Source: Daphnia carinata (taxonomy: Eukaryota; Arthropoda; Branchiopoda; Diplostraca; Daphniidae). Taken from it: a stretch of 64,000 nt of DNA. A model generated the notes under the pieces. The model searched no databases. It saw nothing but the letters and a program-made list of their open reading frames with translations, and was not told the origin of the DNA. Shown piece by piece: positions 1,721 through 41,766 of the stretch (its first letter is position 1; each line of letters begins with the position of its first letter). Both the position numbers and the translations under genes were made by a program. The stretch is taken from assembly GCF_022539665.2 (NCBI RefSeq), contig NC_081331.1:9455534-9519533 (forward strand), given 5' to 3'.

Positions 1721-2196
1721 TTTAAACGGGACAGAGTCTTTTGGGCGAGTTACAAAAAGGACTCCAGGGTTTCCGACTTTTGGTTGCAGGTTTCCGACAC
1801 TTGGACATCTGGTACCCGACGAAAGGACATCTGTTCACCGACGTTTGGACTAGTGGTCCCCGACATTTGGGCGCAACAATATATTGTTGCTGAACCCAAC
1901 GAGCGCTACACTTTCCGACAAGAGGACTCCCGTGCCATCGACATTAGGACTTTTTTTTTTATTGATGATTAGTATTGTATACGTCAAACGGACTCCCGAT
2001 CTAGCGACAAATGGACTCTCCATACAGTTACACGTTGATTGTTTTATTTCTATTACCTTATATTTTATACATACTTTTGCCAAGTAGGTAGGATATTTAA
2101 TTAATGTTATTATTATAGAGATGTTTTTCTATGCTGTATCTGTTTATAAATTGTACTATTTGTATTACAGAAAAAAGTATTAATAAAACTATTAGT
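1721..2196 (+). repeat. Left terminal inverted repeat with ~21-bp subrepeats
   Basis: The reverse complement of 5128-5605 matches this arm closely, from CTTTTGGGCGAGTTACAAAA near 1738 through GCCAAGTAGGTAGGATATTT near 2080 to TGTATTACAGAAAAAAG near 2165-2185. Within 1760-1870 a unit beginning CCGAC, followed by TTGGAC or a close variant, recurs about every 21 bp. A short palindrome (CAACAATATATTGTTG) lies near 1876. Confidence 0.88.
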
Positions 2197-2234
2197 TTAG
2201 CCCCATTTGCAATTGTATTGTTTACTTTTTGGCC

Positions 2235-2441
2235 ATGGCGTTTGACCGAAACCAAGGTGTTATTTACGAATTAGTGCAAAATTACGTGAAATCGAAAGCA
2301 TGTCTCGCGCACCTGAAGTCCTATGTAGAACAAGACAGTGTTGTAATGAGAGCTGCAACTGGACACGATTGGGGAAAGTTAAAAGCTAATGCCACATATG
2401 GCATTATTGCATCTCCTGATAATCCACAGAGGATAAATGCT
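2235..2441 (+). pseudogene. Orphan first-exon-like fragment inside the TIR element
   Basis: An open frame begins MAFDRNQGVIYELVQNY and runs 69 codons to an in-phase consensus donor (GTAAGT at 2442). It looks like the first coding exon of a cellular gene, with even codon use and a conserved-looking stretch around HDWGKLKANATYG. No downstream exon in the element continues it, and the next 500 bp are stop-rich. I do not recognise the family. The best reading is a captured 5' gene piece transcribed towards the element interior. Less likely, it is an exon of the element's own gene. Confidence 0.5.
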
Positions 2442-2947
2442 GTAAGTTTCAGGTATTGTTTTTATTCATATTGAATTGTAATCGTAAGCCATGTCACAAA
2501 CCCAGAATAATCAATTGATCGTTCATTATTGTATATTTAACTATTGTAACAAAGAATTACATTGTTTAGGAAAACTAACTTCGTCTATTTGTTTTGTTGT
2601 TGTTAACTTTTTTTCCAAAAAACTGTATGCCGAAGTGCCATAGAGACCGAAGAGACTTTCATTCAGACGCAAATGTATTGATTTTTCGTAATATTTATAA
2701 TGAATGCAAGAAAAATCCAATCAAGGAGAAAAAAGAAAAGCGCGTCAAGGCAGAGTAGAGATTATTCTTCCCGTAGTTGATTTTAGGTGTGTTTTCAATA
2801 AAAATGAGATGATTTTCAATTGGAAACCCTGCTAACTTTTCATGCTAAGAGAGATTAAAATATTAAGTTATCGCTTAACTCAAGAACTTGGATTTCACGA
2901 TAGAAGTTTACTTACGCAATAAAGAGGTCCATATATTTTACAGTCAA

Positions 2948-4616
2948 TTACACAGGAGGCCAAAGGGTATTGATTTCTTCATGAAGTGATTCAGGTACCC
3001 AGGCTTTATAGGCCCCCAGGAGATAGAATTTATCTTTTTGCCAAGCGGCAAGAAGCGAATCTAAGCTATCGAGATTACCAATTGTCAGTTGTTGAAGTAA
3101 CACTTGTGTCTTGGGCTGGAGTTTCACCCATGTCTTGACCATTGTTGATGGAGTTGACAGCAGAGCTGCCGTGTATCTACATAACAAAATTACTTATTTA
3201 GTACGGCTGGAAAATATGAACAAAACTAGAGCCAATACGTACTTTGCTAGAGGACGACAAACCTCTCCATTAAGGAAAAACTGGGCTAAAAACTTGAACC
3301 GGTCGATACCAGCTGGATATTCAAGCTCCATTACAGGCAGAGGCCAACCACTTCTCCCAAATGTAACATTCATGTGACACATTACACGGCCCTGGTCTGA
3401 ATCATAACCAGGGGCAGAAAGCTCCAAGGGGGCAGAGAAGGTGCACTGTGTAGGACTGAATATAGGCAGCCATTCGGGTTTGATGGCCCTAATACCACGC
3501 AAATAGATTTTGTTGGCATGTTCATAAATGTCCTGATAAATGATCCATTCAGGGTGCGAATAGCGCAAGATACTCGATGAGTTCAAGAAGACAGGATCTT
3601 CCATTTCTGGGCAGCGATAAGCGTATTTGTACTTTCTACAGTCTTCGGTTTCCTTGATTTCATTTGGAGGTATTCGCTTAGCCACGTGATCGGGAAGTCC
3701 AGCCATCAGAATCTGACGCAAAAGTTTGGCTTGCAATTCAGTAGGGGGGCGCCATGCGAGGGTCAACCACAATCGATGCAGTGCCCGATGGTAAATTCAA
3801 GTTCGTTTCGTTTGTCAGCTAGACCCGCAGTTTTCGGACTTCACGAAGAGCTTTGCTACGTATCCCGTTCGTGGAACAAAACGCTTCAATATCACCCGAG
3901 TACTCGGCGGCGCCAACAGCACGCAGGAGTACCATGGGGTCTCCTAAAAGTAGGGACTGTCCCGTTCCAGCCCAGGATAGACGTTGACCAAGCCACCTTC
4001 TGTGAGTATCGCCTGCTACAGAATCGGCTGGCTGATCCAGCACAAGTTCTTGTACTAATAGGGCAGCCACCAGAGTAATGCTCAGCTGACGTAGGTCATT
4101 TTGTTGGCTTAATAATAACATCTTTGCAAAGCGCGGTGCTAATGGATAAGCTGCCATGGCTCTGCCAAGTGGAGTGATTTTTGACATCCATTCTTGGCTT
4201 TCTGTAAATGCTAAAATGAATTTTCAATATTTTAAAATGTAATTGAAAAACAGTACGAATCTTATGTTTGAGTCCTACGCTGCGTGGCGGCGGTTCCAGT
4301 GCATTTAGCAACAACAACCGTCGCTCAGCTGCGAATAGTTGCTGAATATCAGGTGGTGTGGGGAAAGGAAAGTGAATAACTTTTTCAATGTCCATTGATT
4401 TCATTTGCAGAACTAAGTCGTCGATGGGTCTGGAATAAAACTTTGTTATACTTCCCTTGACAGTAGCCAAATCTATAATAATAATACCTTCGCGCGATAT
4501 CTGGCAAGGAAAATTTTTCAAACTCGTCATTAAAGACGTCAAAAGAATAGAGTCGGTAACAATGTCCCGGGCCGGTACGACCAGCTCGACCAGCACGTTG
4601 ATTAATATCCCCTTCG
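2948..4616 (-). pseudogene. C-terminal half of a DHX37-like DEAH RNA helicase, broken and captured
   Basis: Minus-strand exons, still separated by introns, encode the second half of DHX37 (Dhr1/kurz), the nucleolar DEAH helicase of small-subunit ribosome biogenesis. Helicase motif [21 protein letters not shown] lies near 4600-4540. [20 protein letters not shown] follows from 4429. The winged-helix/ratchet region with ITPLGRAMAAYPLAPRFAK runs from about 4185, then the OB-fold part (about 3750-3245), and the family's C-terminus with YLLGAYKAWVP ends in a stop at 2948. Motifs I and II (Walker A, DEAH) are absent. Two lesions are visible. A TAG at 3821-3819 interrupts KLRV-LTN, where a glutamine codon is expected. 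A single-base gain in the C run near 3755 shifts frame between DPRMAPP and TELQAKLL. Retained introns show capture as DNA rather than through mRNA. Confidence 0.92.
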
Positions 4617-5127
4617 CTAAAAAAAAAAAGGAATTACAAACTCTTAGACAATTAATACTACCAGACGGTTTTTAAGTATGTACTGTATAACATGCTATTA
4701 ATAGAAATATTATATATTCATTAATTTCATAACATTATTTGAAAGATTGCTGTTAGCATTACCTTTCCCTGGATATGCACATTGGGACCTCGAGACAAGT
4801 GGGGCTGTTGGCTTTGAGTCAACAATGGAATCATGAGTTTGTGCTGCGAGTGACAAAAGGTTATGTACATTAATTATTTAATATGCTTAACAGGAATTCT
4901 TCCTTGGTCTTACCTTATCCTCCATTTCCACATTTCTTAATAACAGAGACTAAGTGTTGATGTATACTCTACAATGTCTTGGATGACGTATGGCAGCAAC
5001 ATTATAAGGAATGGTTTCGATTGCTACATCATACCTTAGTGCCTTGAATAACTAAAAGATTAGTAAATTTAAGTAAATAAAAACTTGATAGATTTACCTC
5101 TGGCATCAGCACATAAACTCTTATAAT

Positions 5128-5605
5128 TTTATTCATCCTTTTTTCTGTAATACAAATAGTAAAATTAATAAACCGATACATCATAGGAAAACACATCTAT
5201 AGTAACGAAATTAATTAAATATCCTACCTACTTGGCAAAAGTATGTATAAAATATAAGGTAATAGAAATAAAACAATTAACGTGTACCTGTATTGAGAAT
5301 CCTTTTGTCGCTAGATCGGGAGTCCGTTTGACGTATACAACACTTATCATCAATAAAAAAAAAGTCCTAATGTCGATGGCACGGGAGTCATCTTGTCGGA
5401 AAGTGTAGCGCTCGTTGGTTTCAGCAACAATTTACTGTTGCGCCCAAACGTCGGGGACCAGTAGTCCAAACGTCGGTGGACAGATGTCCTAACGTCGGGT
5501 TCCAGAGTCCAAGTGTCGGAAACCTGCAACCAAAAGTCGGAAACCCTGGAGTCCTTTTTGTAACTCGCCCAAAAGAGTACATGCCTTTTAAACACACCTA
5601 GTTAT
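5128..5605 (-). repeat. Right terminal inverted repeat
   Basis: This is the inverted partner of 1721-2196. Similarity runs from ACTCGCCCAAAAGAG at about 5565-5578 inward to CTGTAATACAAATAG near 5145. The arms differ by scattered substitutions and small indels, so the copy is not freshly inserted. The same CCGAC-type subrepeats occur on the complementary strand. Confidence 0.88.
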
Positions 5606-5739: not shown

Positions 5740-8700
5740 ATGGAAGCCGAAGATATTGAACCGGATGGAATGATTTTTCCATCAAAATCAAAGAAACAGA
5801 GAAACCTTGTTTTATTGGATTCGGACGATGAATTATCAGAAGAGCAAACAAATAAACTGTGTGATCAAAACTCCGTCAGAAGTACATCATCTTCACATGA
5901 ACAAGAATTTGACAACGTTAATTCATCAGGTAATAGTTATGGAATCAGGAATTTTGGATTTAGCCCCTTTTCATTTCTGACTCATTTAAGACAAACATTA
6001 TTGGCAAAATATTTTTATGAAGCTGTAAAAAAATTTTTAAAGTGCTAGCTACTAGACAATTGTGTACTGATTGATCATATTTTTGAATCTTCCAGGTGAA
6101 AAAAATTCAAAAAAAAAAATTAAGACGTTCAAGGATTAAGCCATTGTGGCTTTCAGAAGAAAGTGACAGTAGTAGTAATGACAACAGTTCATCTTGTTTG
6201 TCAAAGAAAGATAACACTCAGAATAGAGTTTCAAAGAAAAAGTTAACTAGTGACTCGGATGGCGATAGCACAAGTCAGTACAAGTTTTATGTTAATCCTA
6301 CCAACCAATATCTTCACATTTTAAAAATTAAAAAAATTCCTATAATAGCTTAAATGAATTGTATGTCTTTTAGGATTGTGCAAACTAAAAAACTAAGTTG
6401 TGTTTGTTTTGGTATATATTGATGACAAAAATTTCTTAATTGCTTAGATTACCACGAAAATTTGAAGAAAAAAAGTTCTCAACTAAGCTCAGAATGGTGT
6501 TCCGGAAACGAAAGTGATGCTAGTTGTGAAGGTAAACTGAGTGTTCATGTTTGTTATTACATTGATCAAATTGTTTCAGTTACCATATTATTTTTGAAGA
6601 AAACTGCAGTGTGATTAAATGCTCATAAATTCATTTTGATTCAGGAGAGGATTCGGGAAAGAATCTAAACAACATTTCCAAATCATTTATTAACAAGAAT
6701 GTGGTATGCTTTTCCATTTTCTAAATATAAATTTAACTAGTAATTATTAAGTGATTGTTTGAATGCCTCAGACATTCTGTTCAAGTGCATTTATGATTGC
6801 AAGTTACTTAGTCAGTAATGTCTAATACCTTAAATAGTTTGAGGTTGATTTTGTAAGCATTTACAAATAATAGTAGAACAATTTTATTATGCTACTTGGA
6901 GCTAGGATCGTATTTAGTGTACCACTCGACAAATAAGTAGTTTTGTGATTTATTTTCATTTAGAAAAAGAAACCCAATGAGGAAATGCAGGAAATACAAA
7001 GGGAGTCTCAGCGGATGGTACGGGAATCGTCTGTTTGTCTGCCCTACCACAAAGTAAATTTTCCACTACCCTTCGTCATTGTTTTCTGGTGAAAGTCTCA
7101 AGTATTTTTGTCTTATTTTGCAGCCAAAACAAAGAAGTCTTATCGAATTCCTCAATCGCAAAAGACTAAGCGTGGTTGGCACGGTTACACCGAGGCCTAA
7201 GGATGTGGATTCTGTTGTGTAAGCCCAGATTTACTATAGTTTATATAATGAACGAGATACTATTTTATTTCGACTTCTCAGACAAGTACTAGAAGATCGT
7301 GTTAAAGAAATTGAAGAGTTTTTCAAATCTGAATCAGAGGAATCTCAGTCCGATAATGAAATTGGGGACAAATTTGCGAGCCTTCCTCGTCAAAGAGATC
7401 AAATGCATCAACACGAACAACATGAATGTACACCAGCCGATCCTATTCAGGCTCCCGCTTGCTCCAGCGAGATTTCCGACTCTACAGATCAAATTCCTTT
7501 TGAAACTGAAAAAGTCAAAATTGCAGCTGTGCAAGGTACTGCAGATTCCGAAGCAGTCTTGCCAGAGGAGGAAACAGAAACAGTTAGAAACACCATCCTT
7601 CAACAGGATAACTCTTGTTTAAAAAATTCCATAGAAAAAACTCTTGTCCCATTAAAAGACGATGGTCTCAAGAGCTTACATGGATGTATGTTGGATGTAC
7701 GTGCTGATCCCTGTCACGACGATCCCATGTCTTACAAAGAGAAGGTGGAAAACGTTAAGCGGCTGTCAATAGCCAAAATAAGCAAACCTACGTTGCTTGG
7801 TCGACCCGGTCAAGTACTCGATTTCGATCTCGATACAACCTGTACGCCAGATCTAAAAGCCAATGTGAATGATCTGATAAAGCGGTTTGTCCAGCAAGTC
7901 ACAAGTACTAAGAAATCACCGCAGAAGAAAGACCGCCAGATCAGGTATGGTCGAGCGTTAATACTTTTGTAAACTCTTCTATATGTTCTGTATTCCCTTA
8001 GCATCGTTCACAAAGTTATGAATGCGGATGGCCAAATTGAATTAAAAAGGGATGTACTAAACGTTCCTGTCGATAGTAATTCGTCGGAGCGCGCATCTGT
8101 AGTTCGTCGTCAATTTCTGAAAGACTCTTTGCGTCAATCTATATCAGCAAAACGGGCTGTTGATCGTATAAAAAAAATAGAAAATCAACAAGTTCAGGAT
8201 GAAGATTTCCCGTTAGGTATCCGTAATTACCAATTTCAAACAATTCCTCTTTCTATCTTCTTCTTTTAACCGTATTTTTAATCGACCAATTATTCCTTTA
8301 CAGATGATAAGCTTGACAGTGAACCAGAAGAAGAAATATTATCAGATCATTCAGATACGGAATCAGAAGAAGAAGACGGATATAACTTTGAGCGCACTAA
8401 AAAAAGAAAGAAAAAGAAAAGTACATTTGTTGAGGAGGAGGCTGAAGACAGTGACCAAGACGAAGAAGATTCCATTGGCTACGAGGAAAACGACGAAACC
8501 AAAGATACATCAACAGTACCAACGTCTAACCAGTCTAACGATCAAAATAATGGCTTTGAACGTCCGCTCAACTTCGAAGTGGAGGCAAAAAAGCTCGACT
8601 CGTGTTTAGAGCAGAGTACAGCTATCCTAAGATCGGATATGAATCCTGGCTTGAAAGTAAATATCTTAATTTACACCATGATTTCATTTTGCAACACAGT

Positions 8701-10352
8701 TTCGATTTTTCAGGGAATCGGGTGTTCTAGTTCATTTGAGGATCTTACTCCAAACCTGGACATGAGTGATAGTTCTGAAGAAGAAGATATTATTCCGAAG
8801 TTAAAGTGTTCACAAAACAATGAAACTTCAAACGTCGAAGAACTATTGGCCCTCTGCTCGGGAAAATTCCCTGGTAAGTGTTGTCAGAGATTTATTTTTT
8901 CCTTGTATGGTTAGCTAACGTATTTTACCATGTAGATTCATTTTCTGGAAGAGACACGCAAATAAGCAGTTTGACCGAAAATGCTGATGACGATTCTGAT
9001 GAAGAAGTCAAGCCTTTCGCAAGAATAATTCCAATTGCAGACGATGATGATGAAGATGGCTCTATTAGCGCTCACCCAAAGTTCGTTTCTGAAAATGACG
9101 CCGATGAACCTGGAACTGTGCCTTCTTTTTTGGAGGATGATGAAAAATCGATGTCAAAGGTGAAGAAAAGGGCCCGCGTTTGTCTGTCAGATGACGAAGA
9201 TGAAAATATCGATGAAGACCATTCGCTTGTCGAAGAAGAGGAAATGCATGAAGAGGAACGAGAATTTAGAGGTTTGACTGAGTTCTTTGAAGACGAGGCC
9301 GAACTGTCCGGTTCCGAAATTGGGAGTGGTGACGAACGAGAAGACGAAATGGATGACTGGGAGGAGGAGGAAGGCGATAAGGAGGATATTGATGAAAACG
9401 AAGTTCGTGAGCAAGTTGGAAGAGCTCATATGAAGACAATGCTTGATCAAGATCAACGTGATGTACGACTTTTTCAAGAGCTTTTTCTCGAAGACGGTGA
9501 TTTGCATTCTGATGGCGGTGGAAGGCAAAGACAATTTCGGTGGAAACAGGCCGATGGTGAAGACACCGAGGGAGACAATGCCCGTCCAAAAAGTCAAGAA
9601 GATGAAGAAGATGAAGCCGCCGACGAACAGGATGATCTCACGTGGAGAAAAATTCGCAGTGATAGAGAAAAATGGCTCCAGCAACAAAAGTCGCAACAGG
9701 TAGGTCGGTTTTCCAACGTCGTAAAAGGTCTTCAGTTTACTGATTAACCATTTTTGCTGCCAAATATTTGGTATACAGGAAACGAATAAAGAAGTGCCAT
9801 TGCTTATGAGCCGGAAGGCTAAAATGGTAAAAATCAACACTGCTTCCAAAACCATTAATCAAGTTGCAGAAGGCGAACCCTCCACAGCGACTGCCAACGC
9901 CAAGCAATCAACATATTCTAAGTCGAACATTGTGTCCACTGTAGGTTACTTTTAAGAAGTGCCTAGTACACTGTAGGGGGAGATCAGTCTTTACATAGTT
10001 TCGTACTTTAAATTTGCTAGGTGAGACGCGGGTCTTTTTTACGCAGAAGTGAAAAGGATTTATCAGAACTGGCATCGTTAACAAAATCCGTGTTGCCGGT
10101 TCAGGCACCAAGAGTGGGTTCCAATTTTGTATTTGCATCGATTACTCCGGAGAGGCCAGTCGCCGAGCCAAAAAGGAAACTCAAACAAGATGTAATACCG
10201 AAGTTAATTTGTGGTATGCTTTTGCTTTCGATTGTAATACTTCTTTTTCTTTCTTACAGGATTCTAAATGCGATTCGTCCAAGCAAAATCCAGTACCAGC
10301 TAAGAAAGCTAAAATGTCTCTGAGTGCAAAGAGTATTTTCTCCTACTTTTAA
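5740..10352 (+). CDS. CLSPN: Claspin, replication-checkpoint adaptor (about 14 exons)
   Basis: Claspin is the fork-associated mediator that lets ATR activate Chk1. Proposed coding exons: 5740-5929, 6096-6292, 6448-6531, 6645-6703, 6964-7053, 7124-7218, 7282-7944, 8002-8216, 8304-8656, 8714-8873, 8936-9699, 9779-9940, 10021-10191 and 10260-10352. From exon 2 onward the splice phases agree. Family identity comes from the acidic C-terminal half, with EAELSGSEIGSG, then HMKTMLDQDQRDVRLFQE and DGDLHSDGGGRQRQFRWK, the hallmark claspin block. The rest is rich in Ser, Asp and Glu, as in claspins. The protein ends in KSIFSYF, a degenerate PCNA-binding-like tail. I did not see clear vertebrate-type Chk1-binding repeats. 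The joint of exons 1 and 2 is uncertain: the consensus sites leave the frame one base off across an 11-A run at 6109-6119. Confidence 0.9.
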
Positions 10353-40900: not shown

Positions 40901-41766
40901 CGAACCTTCACTTTCCAAGATGCTCATCATGTCTGTTCACCTGGTAAGGACATTTAAACAAGAGTAACCATGACTATTATAGTTGACTGTTTTTATTATT
41001 ATTCATTTCTGTGTTTTTAGATGTGTTCTGATGAAATTTTGACAGTGGTGTCAATGTTGTCAGTTCAGAATGTTTTCTACCGACCCAAAGATAAGCAGCA
41101 ATTAGCAGACCAGAAAAAAGCCAAGTTCAATCAAGCTGAAGGAGATCACATCACCTTACTGGCTGTGTACAATTCTTGGAAAAATAATAAGTTCAGCAGT
41201 GCTTGGTGTTACGAGAATTTCGTGCAGATGCGTACCCTTAAACGAGCGCAGGATGTACGTAAACAGCTTTTGGGTATCATGGATCGGTATGTATAACCTT
41301 ATAAATAAATAATATTGCGATATAATCTTAAAAGTGTTTCATGTTTATCATTTAAAACAGGCACAAATTGGATGTAGTATCTGCAGGCAAAAATACGGCT
41401 AGAGTTCAAAAAGCCATATGTTCCGGCTTCTTCCGTAACGCAGCAAAGAAAGACCCACAGGAAGGCTATCGGACGCTGGTGGACGGCCAAGTAGTCTACA
41501 TTCACCCGAGCAGCGCAATCTTTAACCGACAACCCGAGTGGGTCGTCTACCACGAGTTGGTTCAGACTACGAAAGAGTACATGCGCGAAGTGACCGTCAT
41601 CGATGCCAAATGGTTGGTGGAATTTGCGCCGGCCTTTTTCAAATTCTCCGACCCGACCAAGCTCAGCAAAGTCAAGAGGAATCAACGTCTCGAGCCGCTC
41701 TACAACAAATACGAAGAGCCCAATTCTTGGCGTATTTCCAGGCAGCGGCGTCTTCGACGAAACTAA
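37911..41766 (+). CDS. DHX8: DHX8/Prp22 DEAH-box splicing helicase
   Basis: DHX8 releases spliced mRNA from the post-catalytic spliceosome in the nucleus, using ATP. Three exons (37911-40943, 41021-41286, 41361-41766) join in phase for 1,234 residues, close to the human length. The start is the ATG followed by [16 protein letters not shown], the conserved N-terminus. An arginine-serine block with [18 protein letters not shown]-type repeats lies at about 170-245. An S1 RNA-binding domain ([20 protein letters not shown] to [10 protein letters not shown]) covers about 268-345. Helicase motifs follow: GETGSGKT (about 600), DEAH (about 694), [16 protein letters not shown], and [20 protein letters not shown] (about 898). 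The conserved C-terminal HA2/OB-fold region ends [12 protein letters not shown]. The very large first exon, against short later introns, is the only structural oddity. Confidence 0.98.

Follow-up and report, generated by a model that had tools for sequence, protein, structure and literature searches.

A Pack-MULE in Daphnia carinata carrying the convergent 3' ends of DHX37 and TMX2

The DNA analysed here (hereafter the window) is a stretch of 64,000 nucleotides of the Daphnia carinata genome, and all positions refer to it unless a contig is named. A MULE-like element of 3,858 bp lies at 1728-5585, with terminal inverted repeats (TIRs) of ~465 bp and an 8-bp target-site duplication (TSD). Comparison of one arm with the other places the left TIR at 1728-2195 (plus strand) and the right TIR at 5120-5585 (minus strand), and the same 8 bp, TTTTAAAC, stand outside both ends, at 1720-1727 and 5586-5593. 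The arms are complementary in three ungapped blocks, 1721-1806 with 5507-5592 (93%), 1808-1959 with 5355-5506 (93%) and 1952-2195 with 5120-5363 (91%), and the left arm has matches of ~100% at seven further places. The long inverted arms reported in the first-pass annotation are therefore real. The left arm had been given there as starting at 1721 and as ~475 bp long, which took in 7 bp of the TSD; the true termini are 1728 (GGGACAG) and 5585 (CATGCC). Arms of Foldback (FB) elements are built of tandem short repeats; checked for this, the right arm contained one pair of adjacent 22-bp units, 77% alike. In a related element (L018), both ends match the window element for ~580-600 bp inwards, past the 465-bp arm, and arm length seems to vary within the family.

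Inside the element, a block of captured genomic DNA at 2690-4603 comprises the tail of TMX2, an intergenic gap and the 3' part of DHX37 with its introns. It aligns collinearly, over 1,918 columns and at 92.3% identity, with positions 3415-1501 of the resident locus (L038). The TMX2 tail (2690-2758, plus strand) consists of the last 22 codons and the stop, and its translation, NIYNECKKNPIKEKKEKRVKAE, equals the end of the resident TMX2. The DHX37 piece (2948-4603, minus strand) has three introns and the natural stop codon. Comparison with the resident gene gives a last exon with this stop at 2948-3176, exon III at 3243-4201, exon II at 4266-4429 and a first captured exon at 4488-4603, which begins, within the parental exon, at helicase motif VI. 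As the capture starts in an exon at this motif, the earlier helicase motifs are absent: everything N-terminal to NQRAGRAGR is missing, and the first-pass annotation was right that motifs I-II are missing. One break of the capture lies inside a DHX37 exon and the other inside the last TMX2 exon, so that of the suggested break in an intron or exon only the exon holds. Both natural stop codons and the three DHX37 introns were kept, and the collinear alignment bears out the earlier description of a Pack-type TIR element that took up about half of DHX37 at the DNA level.

The parent of the cargo is intact and lies elsewhere, on another contig (C3:3893648-3895562), an outcome in favour of the first-pass annotation, which a parent at the site of the element itself would have refuted. 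This resident locus encodes a DEAH helicase with 907 residues in the joined exons of the fetched part. It matches the DHX37_C family (PF23362, E 5.2e-30), and the best PDB match of its 488 C-terminal residues is DHX37 (entry 6o16, E 3.8e-160). DHX37 is an essential gene. The resident TMX2 is convergent to it and 96% identical to a cluster named for Daphnia magna.

The rest of the interior belongs largely to the transposon family. On the plus strand, 2232-2448 is a 5' exon (beginning MAFDRNQG) of the gene that the family itself carries, and a donor-like site, GTAAGT, comes after it; the exon was found at no fewer than 19 scored places. A host-gene origin of this stretch is ruled out, since it is present in cargo-free MULE relatives and upstream of transposase remnants. 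Thus the "two cellular genes" first seen in the element are DHX37 and the TMX2 tail, and the gene-like stretch at 2232-2448 drops out of that count. The right-side interior (4604-5119) is matched by two cargo-free relatives, L024 and L056, which have a left arm with the 5' exon and a right interior with right-arm sequence. L024 is 1,715 bp long and has its own 9-bp duplication; L056 is broken at its right end. The two represent the form that accepted the cargo before the capture, or its close siblings. Apart from 2616-2689, and with only a 74% match for 2523-2615, the interior is accounted for by the parent or by family relatives. Pfam gave no match for the two interior frames compared (the 2232 frame and the frame running into the TMX2 tail), and the view that the element has no transposase of its own is upheld.

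We found at least nine dispersed copies of the element in the genome (108,149,354 bases in 106 contigs), 98.6-99.95% identical, at C1, C2 (two), C3 (two), C4 (two), C8 and C9. The expectation that other copies exist was thus confirmed, by eight further copies. A search with 2940-4640 gave 11 matches among 11 scored candidates: nine full-length at 98-100%, the parent at 93% and one of 88 bp. With the left arm, the best 40 of 94 candidates were scored and all 40 were matches; as the genome searches score the best candidates only, counts of TIR relatives are lower bounds. Eight of the nine copies are full-length or nearly so, and seven of the further copies are collinear, full-length matches to the window element. 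For the ninth, C2b (L037, C2:6757211-6761918), the fetched piece aligns with 2014-5288 only. There ~0.7 kb separate the outer 305 bp of the left arm from the remainder of the copy, which is probably interrupted by a nested insertion, and the outer right arm is absent from the fetched piece. Exact TSDs flank six of the eight copies tested (C2b left out), of 8 bp at the window copy, C3b, C9 and C4b and of 9 bp at C3a and C8; no duplication was found at C4a, and the right end is altered at C2a. The six duplications all differ in sequence from one another. Collinear full-length copies with six different duplications show that the element transposed as a unit. In pairwise comparison the nine copies differ from one another by 0.05-1.44%, and the window copy from C3b by 0.05%. 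Copies and duplications are the ordinary marks of transposition, and its last step was recent. A 28-base TIR pattern had no exact match in viral contigs.

MULE-like transposase pieces were found at four places (seven matches among 12 scored), split over different frames. At C7:11449872, C4:8397837 and C4:8522089 the 2232-2448 exon stands upstream of them, in the same orientation, whereas at the fourth place, C4:9025609, it is found on their downstream side. At the last of these, a PF10551 match of 28.9 bits (cut-off 27.6) adjoins, and does not overlap, the piece of the family protein. The joined transposase piece at C4:8397837 reached 16.6 bits for PF10551, under the cut-off of 27.6, the piece on C7 had no Pfam match, and nine open reading frames of related loci gave one Pfam match, far under its cut-off. 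A database search with joined pieces returned seven proteins of 845 candidates, all named for Daphnia (five magna, one galeata, one sinensis). Together with the TMX2 match, these point to a host in Daphnia that is close to D. magna but probably a different species. PF10551 is present in two of these seven homologues; a re-scan of two gave one match at 39.3 bits and one protein without a match.

The 8- or 9-bp duplications and the long TIRs (~465 bp, 91-93%) are traits of the MULE superfamily, for which the passages of PMC6446971 used here give a duplication length of 8-11 bp. Since it belongs to this superfamily, carries a host-gene fragment whose parent lies elsewhere and has no transposase inside, the window element is a Pack-MULE. 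It is probably of the Phantom/Muta type. Phantom MULEs, as tabulated in the same paper (PMC6446971 Table 1), have crustacean hosts, duplications of 8-10 bp and TIRs of 18-613 bp, all of which fit, although that group is defined by a transposase, which the window element lacks; the Mutators of D. pulex are described as Phantom-like in the excerpt of PMC2884549.

Gene-carrying elements of the Pack-MULE kind are well known in plants and rarely described in animals, and we met few published animal cases. The window element indeed adds an animal case, as had been claimed, but precedents exist in Aedes (PMC5225508) and Drosophila (PMC8277862), as far as the excerpts of these papers go. According to the text drawn on from PMC8277862, a survey of 100 animal reference genomes by Tan et al. 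(2021) identified no Pack-MULE. Like the plant Pack-MULEs described there, the Daphnia element is a non-autonomous MULE with host gene fragments and distinct duplications, and some of the plant elements are also multicopy; unlike them it has an animal host, and its cargo is 1.9 kb against the 305 bp quoted for Pack-MULEs. About 20% of the Muta1 derivatives of Aedes aegypti carry host-gene sequence (PMC5225508, in part), and these resemble our element as animal MULEs with duplications of 8 or 9 bp. Among them, Muta1NA3 has 276 bp of a kinase gene, whereas the Daphnia cargo is about seven times as long, covers two gene ends with introns and occurs nine times in the genome. Ssk-FB4 of Drosophila is likewise a multicopy, gene-bearing element with long TIRs, duplications of 9-10 bp and a parent elsewhere, but in it Ssk was captured almost completely, whereas the DHX37 piece of the Daphnia element is truncated and interrupted by stops (PMC8277862, in part). 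Turmoil-1 of C. elegans is another animal transposon that has incorporated protein-coding sequences, which in that element, unlike ours, sit in the inverted repeats (PMC2572040, in part). Judged by these partial sources, animal Pack-MULEs have precedents in Aedes and Drosophila, and the Daphnia case exceeds the single cited examples in cargo length and in copy number. No paper on Pack-MULEs in Daphnia was found among the matches listed for the literature searched.

How could such an element have arisen? We start from what is seen directly in the genome, namely the structure, the copies, the duplications, the parent and the cargo-free siblings. A non-autonomous Daphnia MULE of ~1.7 kb, consisting of TIR, 5' exon of the family gene, right interior and TIR, would have taken in 1.9 kb of genomic DNA from the convergent 3' ends of DHX37 and TMX2 in a single event. 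Because the introns are intact and the breaks lie inside exons, the capture would have proceeded by template switching or gap filling at the DNA level. The enlarged element would then have been mobilised in trans by a MULE transposase, as the common TIRs and the absence of a transposase inside suggest, and would have spread to at least nine places with duplications of 8-9 bp. Thereafter, the cargo would have decayed as non-coding DNA, while copies of the element swapped patches with functional DHX37. We give this explanation of capture and spread, taken as a whole, a probability of about 0.93.

The state of the cargo fits such a decay. A TAG stands in frame at 3821 of exon III in all nine copies, a +1 insertion at 3744 is found in six of the nine, a 2-bp insertion at 3979 in three and a 2-bp deletion in one. 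The GT-AG ends of the three DHX37 introns are intact in seven of the nine copies, and one donor site is lost in the window copy and C3b. When the 4308-4428 patch and a small inversion are left out, 13 coding changes among the copies are nonsynonymous and 3 synonymous, where a nonsynonymous share of 70-77% is expected without coding constraint; 7 of these 16 changes are sites at which C2b alone keeps the resident base. Given the 13:3 ratio together with the stop and the frameshifts, the cargo appears to evolve as non-coding DNA. At 3977-3984, a tiny inversion with 2 extra bases distinguishes C4a, C9 and C4b from the other six copies and the parent, which suggests template switching.

The differences between cargo and resident gene have a different character. 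Those fixed in all copies, whose direction of change is unpolarised, comprise 59 synonymous and 19 nonsynonymous changes, against 3:13 among the copies (Fisher p 3e-5). Outside hot patches, which were delimited after the data had been looked at, the fixed differences are 25 synonymous and 12 nonsynonymous (p 0.002). Tested against a model in which the resident gene was the source and the captured copy then decayed neutrally, the fixed differences gave p 4e-11 to 2e-4 for the whole set and p 4e-4 to 0.10 for the part outside the patches, as the neutral nonsynonymous share is lowered from 0.75 to 0.60. One patch (3389-3541, minus strand) contains 24 synonymous and 5 nonsynonymous fixed differences; its 24 synonymous changes fall within one 51-codon window (permutation p 5e-5), and clustering of nonsynonymous changes is not clear (p 0.11). 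The synonymous excess in the patches does not fit a simple capture from the resident gene. A process acting on exons only was dropped as its cause, for intron 2 is divergent too (10 of 64 sites). So was a uniformly diverged donor: the non-coding parts of cargo and resident are too alike for it, with 30-34 differences over 443-444 sites (6.8-7.7%). A second DHX37 in the genome is likewise out as the source of the patches, since a protein search of the genome with exon III turned up, apart from the resident gene and the Pack copies, no more than two weak matches to helicases. Overall, dN/dS between cargo and resident is 0.08-0.13, with dN of 0.019-0.030. The right cargo junction is also preserved in an older relic (L039). 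Compared with eight of the copies, the relic has 29-31 differences over 772-774 sites; compared with C2b, it has 30 over 730. This divergence (~4%), the non-coding divergence and dN roughly fit a capture inside the present lineage.

A second patch (4312-4426, minus strand) is a mosaic. The copies other than C2b form two subfamilies, A with five members and B with three, between which 20 differences are fixed, 16 of them within these 115 bp. There the three B copies carry the resident state at 13 sites and the A copies at 3; C2b has the resident state at all seven sites in 4312-4339 and is mostly A-like from 4357 onward. Variation inside the patch comprises 20 synonymous and 4 nonsynonymous changes, an excess which shows functional genes, rather than decay, to be its main source. 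The simplest reading of these sequence patterns is that copies of the element have exchanged sequence with functional DHX37, possibly of a diverged lineage, presumably by gene conversion, to which the mosaic of resident-type and cargo-type states points. It is conceivable, and we propose it tentatively, that the cargo is a mosaic in which some patches came from the DHX37 of a diverged Daphnia lineage, through hybridisation or carried in by the element itself, while ectopic gene conversion by the single-copy resident gene supplied other patches. If so, Pack-MULEs would carry sequence in both directions between a parasite and an essential gene, and might even select for synonymous change in the host gene.

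Could the whole cargo have come from outside? A Pack-MULE with DHX37 from a related Daphnia lineage could have entered by hybridisation or horizontal transfer, some copies being converted in part by the resident gene later. The fixed 59:19 against 3:13 among copies, the 25:12 outside the patches and the low dN/dS all speak for such an origin. The protein comparison cuts both ways: at the 16 residues where the resident differs from P0001, a DHX37 97% identical to it, the cargo agrees with P0001 at four (279, 322, 340 and 456) and sides with the resident at nine, while the other three match neither protein. Against such an origin, the divergence is patchy, the non-coding 6.8-7.7% is not far from the same-lineage expectation set by L039, p outside the patches rises to 0.10 at a neutral nonsynonymous share of 0.60 (the computed share is 0.70-0.77), and the relic itself indicates that the element family is no recent arrival. 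As the synonymous excess does not agree with capture inside the lineage and the cargo has P0001-type residues, we keep the foreign donor as a rival, though an unlikely one.

The remaining alternatives concern function, or deny the transposon. Convergent or antisense transcription from the element might, in line with the suggestion of the first-pass annotation, yield putative small RNAs against DHX37, through which the cargo would regulate its parent. On both sides the inner sequence is similar to the start of the MULE gene, which may mean that promoters face inward, and the 1.9 kb of cargo share 92.3% identity with the resident sequence. We regard such regulation as doubtful. Expression of the cargo under selection, as a shortened DHX37 or a chimeric protein, would account for the low dN/dS and for the three introns with GT-AG ends in most copies. 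It is very improbable in view of the TAG common to all copies, the +1 insertion and the 2-bp insertions and deletion, the donor site lost in the window copy and C3b, the unconstrained changes among copies and the missing helicase part before NQRAGRAGR. A one-off inverted duplication or assembly artefact, with no transposon at all, is scarcely credible for a structure with nine dispersed copies, six different TSDs and cargo-free siblings, and nothing was found in its favour.

We would like to stress that a single genome contains the parent of the captured DNA, siblings without cargo, relatives with broken transposases, nine copies of the Pack-MULE and an older relic. The mechanism and timing of the capture are therefore directly testable in Daphnia, and clonal lines would make it possible to count transposition events. 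Patchy exchange with the resident gene, if confirmed, has a bearing on how captured fragments can affect an essential gene at the level of DNA.

MULEs tend to insert near gene starts. An acidic, serine-rich frame starts with an ATG at 5740, 155 bp beyond the end of the element. A frame on the same strand at 8878-9747 matches Claspin (PDB 7pfo chain Q, E 2.3e-26) and no Pfam family. By sequence, the two frames probably belong to one Claspin gene (5740-9747), and the insertion would lie in its putative 5' region. Farther along the window, 41467-41667 shows weak similarity to a helicase (36% over 68 residues) and is probably another helicase gene.
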